From: Deltaproteobacteria bacterium
GTDB taxonomy: Bacteria; Bdellovibrionota_F; JAHFAK01
Direction: 5' to 3'
Length of the DNA stretch: 15,612 bases
Assembly: GCA_023250585.1 (NCBI GenBank)
Contig: JAHFAK010000027.1
Coordinates: forward strand, 4,729 to 20,340
Part shown: positions 9,905 through 15,612 of the stretch, piece by piece
Layout of the letters: every line of letters starts with the position of its first letter
Numbering within the stretch: the stretch's first letter is position 1
Notes under the pieces: generated by a model
Seen by the model: only the letters and a program-made list of their open reading frames with translations
Databases searched by the model: none
What the model was told of the DNA's origin: nothing
Translations under genes and position numbers: made by a program

Positions 9905-11032
9905 ATGAGCATAAAGGCAAAAAAAATTCAAATCGCAGCAACATGTGCTCTCTTTTATATATTCAGCATATCAGCTTTCTCTCAAGAAGATCCGCAATCC
10001 CCGTTGACTATTAAACCAAAGTTAGATCTTGGATTTGAATATAATAAAGATTATTCTTCATCTATTAATCCTGGAATTTCGTTAGTAGCAGAATTTAAAA
10101 GTGGTACCAATAAAAAAATTGGTTTTGAAATTTCATATAATTTTACCTTAAAAGAATATCTTACTGAGGATAATGTAATTGCTGAAAACAACATAGAATC
10201 CACAACTCAAATTCGAGATTATAAACATGTTATTGCCCTCACTACAAAAAGTGATATTACTTCAAAGATAAATCTTGAACTCAAGGGCGATGTCACATTT
10301 TATCGTGTTAATACGTATGAACAAACAGGTGCTGATTCTGATACATTTACTCTTGGACCAAAGTCTTCATTTACCGGTATTCAATATACTACCTTGAGTG
10401 TCGGATATACCTATACGGGAGCAAATAGTACTCATAAATCAAATACATTAACCACCGATGAGTATGCTTTTGATACTGAAAGTCAGCGTGAACTGAGAGG
10501 CAGTATCCTCGTATATCCATATTCTGACTATACAGAGTTTGGCACCGATGGAGGATCAGATTCATTTTTTGTTGGACTCGATGGAACCGTATTTGATTCA
10601 GGGGAAGAAGTCCCAACATTTAAGCAGACTCATGATATTGGTCTCTCGGGTAAAGTTGATACAAAAATGCCGTATGTCCCCAGTGGTACGCTTGGATACA
10701 ATTTTATTCCTGCTGTCGATTCAAATAATGATAAAGATGACGGCTTTGGACATGTTTTTAAGATAGGTGTAAAACAACCTCTATGGCCAAAAGCTTCATT
10801 AGGATTAGATTATAAATTAGGTATTAATGGTTATAATAATCAAACAGATACGAGCGGAGAATACATTAAGTTTTCATATCCTAACACGATAACTACTTCT
10901 TTATCACAAGATATTGTAACTTGGTTAAATGCTAAAGCTGGCTATGAATACAAGTATACAGCAAGTAATAATGCAGAAGATGATGGAAAAAAAAGCTATA
11001 AAGTTACTCTTGGATTATCGGCATTTTTTTAA
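9905..11032 (+). CDS. Outer-membrane beta-barrel protein, unknown family
   Basis: A 375-residue protein with a signal peptide (basic residues 4-7, hydrophobic 9-24, SAFS with likely cleavage after Ser26). The mature part is made of alternating hydrophobic/polar stretches rich in Tyr, Thr, Gly, Asn and Asp (for example LDLGFEYNKDYSS, VGYTYTGANS, LGLDYKLGINGYN) and ends in Phe-Phe, the C-terminal aromatic used by the BAM machinery for outer-membrane barrels. There is no cysteine after the signal peptide, as usual for barrels. The strand-like repeats suggest roughly 14-16 transmembrane strands, which I did not model. It is the first gene of a same-strand run with the Cys-rich lipoprotein (14 bp gap), the multihaem cytochrome and a second barrel. 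It has a strong Shine-Dalgarno and a sigma-54-like element upstream. It may be a channel or a structural partner of the cytochrome; I do not recognise a named family. Confidence 0.8.
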   Translation: MSIKAKKIQIAATCALFYIFSISAFSQEDPQSPLTIKPKLDLGFEYNKDYSSSINPGISLVAEFKSGTNKKIGFEISYNFTLKEYLTEDNVIAENNIESTTQIRDYKHVIALTTKSDITSKINLELKGDVTFYRVNTYEQTGADSDTFTLGPKSSFTGIQYTTLSVGYTYTGANSTHKSNTLTTDEYAFDTESQRELRGSILVYPYSDYTEFGTDGGSDSFFVGLDGTVFDSGEEVPTFKQTHDIGLSGKVDTKMPYVPSGTLGYNFIPAVDSNNDKDDGFGHVFKIGVKQPLWPKASLGLDYKLGINGYNNQTDTSGEYIKFSYPNTITTSLSQDIVTWLNAKAGYEYKYTASNNAEDDGKKSYKVTLGLSAFF

Positions 11033-11046
11033 TACGTGAGGTATAG

Positions 11047-12048
11047 ATGAAAAGAAATAAAATAATATTGAGTATTTTATTCCTCTTAGTGGTGATTATT
11101 TCTTTTGGTATTTCTGCATGTAAAGGATATCGTACTCAAAAACCGGGGGGTAAAGATCGAACTCAAAAGTTTTCCTTTTCAGAGAAAGGAGCAGAAGTTC
11201 CTGAGGAATCTTCCTCATCGGCATTTTCTGAAGTAGATGCAATCAGTGGAAACTTTGAAGTTAGAGAATTTGCTTCATGTACTTCTGCGAGTAATCCTGC
11301 TGATTGTGAATACAAAGCCTATGTTCGTTTTTCTACTTTTAAAGAGCCGATTAAGTTTAATCCTCTTTTCTTGGGAGTCTTTGAAAAACAAAAAGTTGCC
11401 ACCAACGATCATGGTCCCACTATACTTTATGGTCCATATATACCTGGAGTTGAAGGTAAAGCATATTCAAAGCAACTCATGGATGATGTCAAAAGTCAAT
11501 CAAAAGGAATGTATGTGCCTGGACGAAAGGATGGTTTAGGTAAAGGTATTAACCTCTATGATCCTCAGAAATCTCTTGCGAAAATTGAGTATGATCCTAA
11601 TAGTACAAATCAAAGAAATTTTATATTCAATATGAATGGTGTTCTTGTATATGCCCAAGCTAATATGCCTTCGATTTCTGCACCAATGGGAGAATCATTT
11701 ATTGCGGGCAAAGTTTTGAAAGCAGAGCAGGATAAAGAATTAAAGCTTACGTGGACTGGGAATCCTGAAGGAGGAATAGTACGCGGTGTTTGTGAATGTA
11801 GCGTAAAGAAAGTTCCCTATATTCTTGAAATCAATGCATTCGATGATGGAGAACTCGTTTTACCCCCTAAGCAGGAAGATGGAAAAGATGGAGCAATAAA
11901 TTTCTTGCCCGAATGTACTGCAGAATGCCAGCTTTGTCGAATTGCACCTCAAACCGTGACAACAAGTGACGGCAAAATGAAAATTAATGGTTTTGGTAAG
12001 AAATGTTCGGAATTTGTTGTTACAAAGACTAAACCAAAAAAGACGTGA
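11047..12048 (+). CDS. Cys-rich lipoprotein, unknown function
   Basis: A 333-residue protein. Lys/Arg-rich MKRNK, a hydrophobic stretch (6-23) and the lipobox I-S-A-C put the lipidated Cys at 25. A polar, Ser/Lys/Glu-rich spacer follows (about 26-66). The body holds eight further cysteines at 78, 87, 249, 251, 290, 294, 297 and 320, grouped as C-E-C and CTAECQLC, with no CXXCH haem motif. In the periplasm or on the outer membrane these could form four disulfides, or the C-x3-C-x2-C cluster could bind a metal; neither can be decided here. GTGAGG (11036-11041) is a modest Shine-Dalgarno, 5 nt before the ATG. The gap from the barrel gene is 14 bp, so the two are almost certainly co-transcribed. 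It may be an accessory or surface component of the neighbouring barrel/cytochrome assembly. No family recognised. Confidence 0.75.
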   Translation: MKRNKIILSILFLLVVIISFGISACKGYRTQKPGGKDRTQKFSFSEKGAEVPEESSSSAFSEVDAISGNFEVREFASCTSASNPADCEYKAYVRFSTFKEPIKFNPLFLGVFEKQKVATNDHGPTILYGPYIPGVEGKAYSKQLMDDVKSQSKGMYVPGRKDGLGKGINLYDPQKSLAKIEYDPNSTNQRNFIFNMNGVLVYAQANMPSISAPMGESFIAGKVLKAEQDKELKLTWTGNPEGGIVRGVCECSVKKVPYILEINAFDDGELVLPPKQEDGKDGAINFLPECTAECQLCRIAPQTVTTSDGKMKINGFGKKCSEFVVTKTKPKKT

Positions 12049-12101: not shown

Positions 12102-14114
12102 ATGAAAAGGCTAGTTCTCTTTCTAATCTTGAGTATAGTAATTGTTTCTGACAAAGGATTTGCTATCAACTTTGATCCTGGTAAACTCCTTTCCCCTGGA
12201 GATCTCTCGTCTGCCCATTCCCGCTATGAAGGCATAAAGAATTGTTTTAAATGTCACGCCATCGATCAAGGACTTGTTGATACAAACTGCCTCAAATGTC
12301 ATACGGAAATTCAAAAGCGCATTACCGATAAAAAAGGTTTCCATGGAAAGATTGTTCAACAGCAATGCTTCAAATGTCATACTGAACATAAAGGGCTTGA
12401 GTTTTATATTATGCCTATTAAAGAAAAGTTTGATCACAAAAAGCTGGATTTTGATTTGCCAGGAGTGCATGAAAAACTCAGTTGTAATCGTTGTCATTTT
12501 CAAAATAGAACCGATGTCGAAACAGGACAAAAGACAAATAGCTTTACCTATCTCGATTATACTTCGCATGAATGCTTGAGCTGTCATGCAGATTATCACG
12601 AGCCAAAAGCAGAAGTAGATAACAAATGGGCTTCGTGCGAGAAGTGTCATACCTTCAGTAACTTTCGTGATTTAAAAAAGAATCCGCAATTCGACCATGA
12701 TAAAGATACTGCTTTTAAACTTGAGGGTGCGCACAAGGACGTTACATGTTTTAAATGTCATGATAATGGCAGATGGAAACCTATTGCTTCTAATAGTTGT
12801 TTAACCTGTCACGCTGATGTTCATCGCAAAGCTTTTGGAGATGATTGTCTTAAGTGTCATACGCAAGATAGCTTTAAAGTAAAAGTTTTTGATCATAATA
12901 AAACTCAATTTAAACTCGAGGGTGCGCATACAAAAGTCAGTTGTGAATCATGTCATGGCGATAAATCATTAACCAAAAAAATTGAGAAATTTCAGAGTTG
13001 TCGTGATTGTCATGCAGACCCTCATCGTGGCCAATTTGGTGACCGTGATTGTATTCAATGTCATTCAGCAAAAACATTTACGAAAGGCACATTTGACCAT
13101 AACACCACTAATTTTGAATTAATTGGAGCGCATAATACAACATGTGAACGATGCCATAAAAGTGATAACTATCAATTGCAGTATAAGCAATGTATAGATT
13201 GTCATCGCGAAATTCATCAACGTGGATTTCGTAAGAATAAAGAATATGCGCAGAGCTGCGATCGCTGTCATTCTCAATACGATTGGCGAGATCTCTCATT
13301 TGATCATGATAAAGATACCGATTTTAAACTCGAGGGATCACATAAATATTTGAGTTGCGATGAATGCCATAAAGCAAATGAATATATCGATGATCGCCGT
13401 AAATGTATTGATTGTCATAAAGATCCGCACGGCGGACAATTTAAAGATAAGAGTTGCAATGAATGTCATAATGTAACTAAATTTCCTGATTTTAAATTTG
13501 ATCATGCCGTCAATACTCGTTTTGTTCTTAAAGGAGAACACGTATGGCTTAGATGTGAACGATGCCATAAAGTCGAGGAAAAATATCGCATGGAACGGCT
13601 TAATTGCCAAGAATGTCACAAAGATATCCATAAAGGAAATTATGGTTCTCGATGTTCGAAGTGTCATAATGAATCAGGTTGGAAGGGTGTGACATTTGAA
13701 CATAATTTTGGCGAATACACACTGGCCGGCGATCATATGAAGCTTGATTGCGTTGAATGCCATAAAGCTGGTGCATTGCTTGCCGGTGAAGGATATGAAT
13801 GTATCAGTTGCCATAAAGATCCTCACTTTAATTCTTTTGGTGCATTTTGTGGCAAGTGCCATAATCAACGCGATTGGATGCCAACAAACTTTACTCATAA
13901 TCGGACAGGCTTTCCATTATCAGGAGCACATAAGTTTACTTCATGTGAATCATGTCATCGTAATAGGATTTATATGGGTTTGCCTAATAACTGTATCTTC
14001 TGCCATCGAGCTGATTTTGCAGGATCAATTGAACATAAAACTGATTTTGTTGGGAAAGAGCGCTGTGAACTCTGTCATTTTACAACCAATTGGTATCCGG
14101 TACGACGACGATGA
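12102..14114 (+). CDS. 27-haem c-type cytochrome of nine triheme modules
   Basis: A 670-residue exported protein with a signal peptide (MKRLVLFLIL..., likely cleavage after Ala21) and no lipobox. It has 27 CXXCH motifs, starting at residues 48, 63, 89, 128, 158, 179, 216, 233, 249, 281, 300, 317, 348, 364, 386, 419, 435, 452, 485, 502, 518, 550, 567, 583, 615, 631 and 655, and no other Cys. They fall into nine sets of three. Sets 2-9 each begin with a (F)DH-type segment and a G-x-H, then CXXCH, CXXCH with a D/E-x-H-like His, and CXXCH, as in triheme c7/c3-family cytochromes. Every set has at least three non-motif His, enough for bis-His ligation of all haems. It would be a periplasmic or outer-membrane electron wire. 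Its stop overlaps the next barrel gene by ATGA, as in porin-cytochrome conduits. Electron partners and direction are unknown; haems are attached by the Ccm/Ccs machinery elsewhere. Confidence 0.95.
   Translation: MKRLVLFLILSIVIVSDKGFAINFDPGKLLSPGDLSSAHSRYEGIKNCFKCHAIDQGLVDTNCLKCHTEIQKRITDKKGFHGKIVQQQCFKCHTEHKGLEFYIMPIKEKFDHKKLDFDLPGVHEKLSCNRCHFQNRTDVETGQKTNSFTYLDYTSHECLSCHADYHEPKAEVDNKWASCEKCHTFSNFRDLKKNPQFDHDKDTAFKLEGAHKDVTCFKCHDNGRWKPIASNSCLTCHADVHRKAFGDDCLKCHTQDSFKVKVFDHNKTQFKLEGAHTKVSCESCHGDKSLTKKIEKFQSCRDCHADPHRGQFGDRDCIQCHSAKTFTKGTFDHNTTNFELIGAHNTTCERCHKSDNYQLQYKQCIDCHREIHQRGFRKNKEYAQSCDRCHSQYDWRDLSFDHDKDTDFKLEGSHKYLSCDECHKANEYIDDRRKCIDCHKDPHGGQFKDKSCNECHNVTKFPDFKFDHAVNTRFVLKGEHVWLRCERCHKVEEKYRMERLNCQECHKDIHKGNYGSRCSKCHNESGWKGVTFEHNFGEYTLAGDHMKLDCVECHKAGALLAGEGYECISCHKDPHFNSFGAFCGKCHNQRDWMPTNFTHNRTGFPLSGAHKFTSCESCHRNRIYMGLPNNCIFCHRADFAGSIEHKTDFVGKERCELCHFTTNWYPVRRR
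12429..14111 (+). repeat. Eight tandem ~66-residue triheme modules inside the cytochrome gene
   Basis: Module starts (the F of FDH or its variants) lie at residues 110, 197, 263, 331, 400, 466, 532 and 597. Spacings are 87, then 66, 68, 69, 66, 66 and 65 residues, with a 74-residue last unit. Similarity is still visible in the DNA: 12690-12734 and 13299-13343 match at 36 of 45 bases, and 12888-12929 shares the AATTTAAACTCGAGGGTGCGCAT-type core in part. The array fits growth by tandem duplication. It is protein-coding, not a CRISPR or satellite array. Confidence 0.85.
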
Positions 14115-15612
14115 AATACATTATACTCCTTACCCTTTTTTTTTATGCCTGTACTCTGAGCACTGCATTTGCAATTTCTAAAACCAAAGGAAAATTTCGT
14201 ATAGGATTTTTATATTACTTCGATAATATAGATGATCTCATTTCGTTATACCCCGATAAAGAAATTATCGATGTGAGTGACTTTCAGGAACTTACAAAAC
14301 CTGAAGATGAACGTGATCCTAATTTAAATCCAGCGGATGCTCCTATTAATAACTCGCTTCTGACTTTTGAAGACAGCGATACAGCACGACGTTATATAGG
14401 GGATTTTTCTTATCTTACGTTTCGCAGTTATCTTCATGCTGAAAAAATACAAAAAACAAATCTTAATTTTCATTTTAATTTTTATGGGAAAGAAAACTTA
14501 CAAAATCCCATTATTACTTATTTAGGTGAGGAGAAAACCAAAATTAAAGTCACTGAATTCAATCTTGAATATAATAACGATTATACTCCCATTCGTTTCC
14601 AAGCGGGACGAATTCCGCTTACGAATTTAGGATTTAATTTAATTGATGGAGTAGAATTAGAATATAAATTAAATAAAGAAGTACAGATAGGAATTTTTAG
14701 TGGCGAAAAACCACATCCTGTTACGTATTATTTTACTGATAATCTTACAAGCCATGGGACGTATCTCAATTATTATCGGCCTAATTTCAATTTAGAGAAT
14801 GGGATTCTCTTTGATCTTTTTGAATTTAATAAACTCGATCGAGCAGCATATTTTAATTATTTCCATGTAAAACCCCTTGATGTACTTGATATAAGCGCTT
14901 ATTCTACTTTTAACATTCAGGAAGGATATTTTGAATATGTCTATGGGAGCATCTCATCTCGGCCATTTTTCTTCATGCAATCGGCACTTGCGTTGTTACA
15001 TTATAGAAATGTTTTTCTTCAAGAATCAGGAGTCCTCGATCTTCATTTTGAAAACAATACGGAACTGCAAGATATTTATAACCAAAAATCAGTGAATGAA
15101 TTACGATTTACGCAAGAATTTATACCACATGATACTTTTTCAATCTATGGAATTTTTGATTTAGGCCATTCAGAATTCAGTGATAAAGATAAAATCGGTT
15201 ATTCCATTGGTACGCGGGCGCAACGAATCGAGCCGCTTTTCATTAATCTTACCACCCAATATCAAGATACGTATAATTACTTCTCTCATGATCAACTTTT
15301 TTCCATAGATGTATCCCGATATTTTTTAAATGACGATCTCTATATTCTTACTGGCGTGGATATCGAAACAAATGAGCGAGATTTAGAATACCTTGTTGAT
15401 CTTGATACTACTACAATTCCTGCTGATGATAAGGATTTGAATTTTACGGCTATTTTTGAACTTTCCTATAATCTCTATGATAACTATAGCCTCGATCTTA
15501 TGTATAATCGAAGAACTGCCACTGAATTTGTGAATCAATTTGATCTGCCGAATACGGTCTCACGTTTTAATTTAGATGAAAATACTTTCTATGTTCAGCT
15601 TTCTTATAGATT
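14111..15612 (+). CDS. Outer-membrane porin-like beta-barrel, 3' truncated by window
   Basis: An open frame from ATG 14111 continues without a stop through the last base, so at least 500 residues. The ATG lies in ATGA with the cytochrome stop (14112-14114), a classic translational-coupling overlap, and there is no separate Shine-Dalgarno need. MKYIILLTLFFYACTLSTAFA is a signal peptide with likely cleavage after Ala21. The mature part is amphipathic beta-strand-like throughout, rich in Tyr, Phe, Asn and Asp (e.g. LNFHFNFYGKENL, RFQAGRIPLTNLGFNLIDGV, FTAIFELSYNLYDNYSLDL), including a porin-like G-R-I-P-L-x-N-L-G pattern near residue 176. Size and coupling fit the barrel subunit (MtrB/PioB/OmbB role) of a porin-cytochrome complex, although I see no diagnostic MtrB-family motif such as a CXXC near the N terminus. 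The true length and C-terminal residue are outside the window. Confidence 0.8.
   Translation, partial: MKYIILLTLFFYACTLSTAFAISKTKGKFRIGFLYYFDNIDDLISLYPDKEIIDVSDFQELTKPEDERDPNLNPADAPINNSLLTFEDSDTARRYIGDFSYLTFRSYLHAEKIQKTNLNFHFNFYGKENLQNPIITYLGEEKTKIKVTEFNLEYNNDYTPIRFQAGRIPLTNLGFNLIDGVELEYKLNKEVQIGIFSGEKPHPVTYYFTDNLTSHGTYLNYYRPNFNLENGILFDLFEFNKLDRAAYFNYFHVKPLDVLDISAYSTFNIQEGYFEYVYGSISSRPFFFMQSALALLHYRNVFLQESGVLDLHFENNTELQDIYNQKSVNELRFTQEFIPHDTFSIYGIFDLGHSEFSDKDKIGYSIGTRAQRIEPLFINLTTQYQDTYNYFSHDQLFSIDVSRYFLNDDLYILTGVDIETNERDLEYLVDLDTTTIPADDKDLNFTAIFELSYNLYDNYSLDLMYNRRTATEFVNQFDLPNTVSRFNLDENTFYVQLSYR

Follow-up and report, generated by a model that had tools for sequence, protein, structure and literature searches.

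The window analysed here, a stretch of 15,612 nucleotides (G000:C77:4729-20340) from a 2.24 Mb genome in 164 contigs that is 96.7% complete, encodes an exported cytochrome with 27 haem-binding motifs. Because the cytochrome gene lies directly before the gene for an outer-membrane beta-barrel, the protein is most likely a long electron wire between the inside and the outside of the cell, and we consider it probable that a compact, PCC3-related porin-cytochrome conduit has this protein as its only cytochrome, which would cover most of the periplasm and enter the barrel.

Architecture of the cytochrome

12102 to 14114, forward strand: 27-haem c-type cytochrome, 670 aa, of nine c7-like triheme units (27 CXXCH motifs, Pfam Cytochrome_C7, units aligned)
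12102 to 12164, forward strand: apparent Sec signal peptide (MKRLVLFLILSIVIVSDKGFA, roughly residues 1-21) without a lipobox Cys, as read from the sequence
Residues 30-109, 110-196, 197-262, 263-330, 331-399, 400-465, 466-531, 532-596 and 597-670: the nine units, phased at the 'FxH' element

The original prediction had described 27 CXXCH motifs in 670 residues with no cysteine to spare, and exact counts agree, with one haem per about 24 residues and all 54 cysteines lying within the motifs. Shuffled sequences of the same composition (n = 2000) contained on average 0.35 CXXCH and never more than three; the pattern is genuine and beyond chance. The division into nine regular triheme modules is borne out by the alignment of the units with one another (BLAST, pair E-values from 0.008 to 1e-22), units 3-8 being 65-69 residues each, and Pfam Cytochrome_C7 matches the protein in eight stretches (E 7.9e-28). 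The protein has 55 histidines, 27 in the motifs and 28 free. In the FxH phase every unit contains three CXXCH and three free His, unit 2 adding a fourth, unconserved one (H156), whereas triplets cut at the first CXXCH leave the last with a single free His, so that the three extra histidines originally attributed to each module hold in the former phase and not in the latter. In two distant homologues from another phylum (40% identity) all 27 haem motifs are colinear, as are the distal His for nearly all of them. There are thus as many largely conserved free His as haems, 27 of each, or one conserved candidate distal His per haem, and bis-His ligation throughout, as the original prediction had it, is possible.

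A profile search of the PDB with the cytochrome (E <= 0.01) gave 22 matches, including HmcA, GSU1996 and MtrA, and phmmer with the single sequence as query found no matches in the PDB. OmcS, OmcE and OmcZ are absent from the 22 profile matches. This bears on the idea, raised originally, that the protein is a subunit polymerising into an extracellular conductive filament, for which its regular repeats and high haem density would be suitable; the missing OmcS-type match, the barrel partner and a haem number that is finite and conserved in three genomes all speak against it, and we found no evidence that would make it other than very improbable. AlphaFold2 modelling of the cytochrome (10-sequence alignment) gave an unusable pLDDT of 37.6 and no haem distances, so the haem chain and barrel insertion discussed below are inferred rather than modelled.

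The overlapping barrel gene and its relatives

9905 to 11032, forward strand: 375-aa exported protein, possible operon member, co-directional and 14 bp before the next gene, no Pfam match
11047 to 12048, forward strand: 333-aa predicted lipoprotein, possible operon member, co-directional and 53 bp before the cytochrome gene, no Pfam match
14111 to 15612, forward strand: exported outer-membrane beta-barrel and porin partner of 500 aa or more, its gene truncated where the contig stops

The stop codon of the cytochrome gene overlaps the start of the barrel gene (ATGA), an arrangement that the original prediction missed and that points to a porin-cytochrome system. The barrel gene is readable up to SYR and then TT, where contig C77 and the window both end, so that it is almost complete and probably one codon short. 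The barrel is related to those of multihaem clusters in Bacteroidota (hhalign E 9.5e-7), with which it has an xGR..DG signature in common. About 22 long strands are seen in its AlphaFold2 model, which is of low confidence (pLDDT 43) and retrieved only generic porins in a Foldseek fold search; in Pfam the barrel had no MtrB_PioB match and a weak one to OMP_b-brl. Equivalents of the 375-aa and 333-aa upstream genes were not seen beside the homologue in genome G034, and a scan for promoters and terminators gave sites no commoner than in shuffled sequence. Elsewhere in the window, positions 160-1110 encode a predicted lipoprotein with a Pro/Asn/Gly-rich low-complexity stretch and no Pfam match.

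The closest homologues, both with 27 haems and with a barrel gene directly downstream, are from one other phylum (G034, 677 aa; G061, 676 aa), and the start of a third compact homologue, cut by a contig end, is present in G059. In a tree of the N-terminal part, these four compact sequences group together (support 85/90) on long branches. A query with the C-terminal part recovered two more single-cytochrome systems from a sample of 290 genomes, in G067 (26 CXXCH and 4 CX4CH, or 30 possible haems) and in G207 (29 CXXCH and 4 CX4CH, or 33), each again followed by a barrel. The order of cytochrome then barrel is thus found in five genomes, namely that of the window, G034, G061, G067 and G207.

L072:6467-8905 and L071:7957-10713: the CX4CH-bearing homologous cytochromes

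A plain CXXCH count misses four haems in each of these two proteins. The forms with 27, 30 and 33 haems differ by whole triheme units, in keeping with the extendability that had been predicted from the repeats. In G034 a 190-aa protein with six haems (L044:8759-9328), resembling the N-terminal part of the 27-haem protein, is encoded before the latter; it may be a paralogue that has been shortened, or else another periplasmic carrier. G059 (L060:2488-9210, L059) has, apart from its compact system, another gene cluster that encodes cytochromes of 20 and of 10 haems and in which a flavoprotein is fused to the inner-membrane protein. Matches on Sphingobium plasmids were rejected as members of the same system, the protein being smaller and its neighbourhood one of copper resistance.

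12189 to 13619, forward strand: haems 1-20, residues 30-506, matching in order the haems of the 20-haem cytochrome (PCC3 type) in Bacteroidota
13620 to 14111, forward strand: C-terminal extension with haems 21-27 (residues 507-670) and, at its end, the second-cytochrome signature

In Bacteroidota the typical gene order is an inner-membrane protein, a 20-haem cytochrome, at least one further cytochrome of 10-40 haems and a barrel, and a flavoprotein with Fer4 and Pyr_redox domains is encoded nearby. When haems 1-20 of our protein are aligned with the 20-haem first cytochrome, all 20 CXXCH are invariant at about 38% identity, and the N-terminal fragment is 38-48% identical to the 20-haem Bacteroidota proteins. 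Haems 21-27 have no counterpart in the alignment of 20-haem first cytochromes. The last three haems (25-27) carry the signature C..CH-x-P..C..CH..D[FYW]-x-C..CH, which none of the eight first cytochromes listed (with 20-23 haems) has. All second cytochromes of the set (extracellular or 10-haem type) have it, as do the 27-haem proteins of G034 and G061 and the single cytochromes of G067 and G207. Haems 1-20 and 21-27 differ in their affinities, which the original prediction had also missed; since the units are all related repeats, it is mainly this one signature that places haems 21-27 with the second cytochromes.

These results also bear on whether the protein might instead be a soluble periplasmic c7 polymer, storing electrons as a capacitor or shuttling them, next to a barrel unrelated to electron transfer. 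Such a role has been proposed for GSU1996, to which the c7-type repeats and the profile match (3ov0, E 4e-12) relate our protein, and suggested for GSU2210, a 27-haem Geobacter protein described as periplasmic and of a kind described as capacitors. It would leave unexplained, however, why the overlapping gene encodes a homologue of the barrels of multihaem clusters, why the order of cytochrome and barrel recurs in five genomes and why the C-terminus bears the second-cytochrome signature, and we regard it as unlikely.

A proposed inner-membrane partner and the relation to known systems

On contig C38 the genome encodes a 660-aa membrane protein with cNMP-binding, 4Fe-4S and cytochrome-b-like (IMP-like) parts, its Fer4_11 match falling below the curated cutoff. 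The C-terminal half contains both HX13H motifs and SGxxG; the second WX3HX13H is exact and the first is without the W at -4. In the Bacteroidota clusters, two helices of the inner-membrane protein likewise contain HX13H, and SGxxG is present too; these are features described for PCC3 and PCC4 (PMC5566968). The PCC3 protein has about 300 aa, five TM helices, two WX3HX13H and SGxxG. The 660-aa type was found at full length in all four genomes with the 27-haem type (that of the window, G034, G059 and G061), whereas searches of eight other genomes gave no full-length protein of this type. In G034 its gene lies about 1.3 kb upstream of the 6-haem gene, which itself comes before the 27-haem gene, and in G059 it shares a contig with the gene for the compact cytochrome; in the genome of the window the two genes are on different contigs, so their linkage here is drawn by homology with G034 and G059.

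PCC3 was described by He et al. (2017; PMC5566968), and its periplasmic-type cytochromes have a median of 21 haems; in Gallionellaceae they have 21, 24 or 27, in multiples of three (Hoover et al., 2023; PMC10734462). Our system resembles PCC3 in its long haem-dense cytochrome and its barrel and, less clearly, in an inner-membrane protein that carries both HX13H motifs along with SGxxG; the sequences were compared with Bacteroidota and Gemmatimonadota clusters of PCC3-like layout. It differs in that a separate extracellular cytochrome was not found, the signature of the latter being in the C-terminal seven haems, in the fusion of the inner-membrane protein to cNMP-binding and 4Fe-4S domains, and in the size of the barrel, many PCC3 porins being larger, with as many as 42 strands reported. 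Since a separate extracellular cytochrome was looked for and not found, we file it as a PCC3-related variant and not as PCC3 itself.

It might nevertheless be an ordinary complete PCC3 whose extracellular cytochrome was lost in an assembly gap, given that published PCC3 periplasmic cytochromes include 27-haem forms and that the contig ends inside the barrel gene. With 164 contigs and a contig end at this position, the gene for an additional cytochrome might have escaped notice if it lay a short way past the barrel, and this small gap is the chief caveat to the reading as a single-cytochrome system; a search for contig-end overlaps found no sequence past the barrel. Against this, no other large multihaem frame was found in the genome: searches with Pfam C7 and a 40-haem protein gave no second large multihaem cytochrome, no surface-type cytochrome was found, and other multihaem proteins have at most eight CXXCH where the frame was read. 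In G034, moreover, no cytochrome follows the barrel on a contig of 229 kb, and the second-cytochrome signature is already present at the C-terminus of our protein. We judge a lost extracellular cytochrome to be unlikely, and slightly less probable than a periplasmic electron store.

The proposed compact, PCC3-related conduit shares features with other systems as well. As in MtrAB, MtoAB and PioAB, it has a two-gene layout of cytochrome and barrel without an obligatory surface cytochrome, and its profile is similar to MtrA (6r2q_A, E 7e-10), but it has 27 haems against ten, as the original prediction had emphasized for MtrA, and a barrel without a Pfam MtrB match. GSU1996 (12 haems) also has triheme c7-type domains in a row; in that protein, however, each domain has one His-Met haem, whereas a candidate distal His is available for each haem here, and our protein has a barrel partner. 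GSU2210 was compared by haem number, in which it equals our protein. PCC4 has a 4Fe-4S component (pfam13247) and an HX13H inner-membrane protein in common with our system, where the Fer4_11 match is below the cutoff, but three smaller cytochromes (4, 5 and 10 haems) in place of one with 27.

A possible electron path and its meaning

In the proposed path the nine triheme units are stacked in a line through the periplasm, and electrons would be handed on from each haem to the next. The N-terminal 20 haems may reach across the periplasm to the cytochrome-b-like protein of the inner membrane encoded on contig C38, and the C-terminal seven may dock in or enter the barrel that the overlapping gene encodes, so as to offer electrons at the surface of the cell, a task that falls in full clusters to the separate second cytochrome. 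Edwards et al. estimated that about 27 haems would bridge a periplasm of ~200 A (PMC7096707), so the length of the protein fits the whole periplasm, or most of it together with the outer membrane, and the original suggestion that it spans the periplasm is plausible. We infer that the haem chain is continuous, that it enters the barrel and how it is oriented, and likewise its connection with the membrane protein and the direction of flow. Outward flow is slightly favoured, because in the Bacteroidota clusters a flavoprotein of Fe-S/NAD(P) type is encoded close to the membrane protein (the two being fused in G059), with Fe(II) uptake as the alternative. The genome encodes a haem-copper oxidase and, on contig C85, a molybdopterin/Fe-S protein next to one with five haems, similar to alternative complex III, which makes electron uptake possible. 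It also encodes the cytochrome maturation protein ResB and, on contig C95 (L046:6684-8276), an octahaem protein of the Multi-haem_cyto or cytochrome c554 type.

Cytochromes with 27 haems (GSU2210, PCC3) and proposals of periplasm-spanning proteins are already known, periplasm bridging having been put forward in published work as a putative function of PCC3 cytochromes. In the open-access papers searched we found no description of a layout in which a lone cytochrome ends in a second-cytochrome module and has a cNMP/4Fe-4S/IMP partner, although an earlier account is possible. More tentatively, one polypeptide might form an uninterrupted haem chain from the inner membrane through the periplasm and the barrel to the surface, with a haem number that is set by the width of the envelope and varies only in steps of one triheme unit; a membrane protein combining cNMP sensing, 4Fe-4S and cytochrome b would feed the chain. 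With one cytochrome, one barrel and one inner-membrane protein, this is the smallest version that we found, and the compact system would offer a simple object for testing whether one protein alone can connect the cell surface with the inner membrane. Its homologues, which have 30 and 33 haem motifs, would serve as natural length variants.
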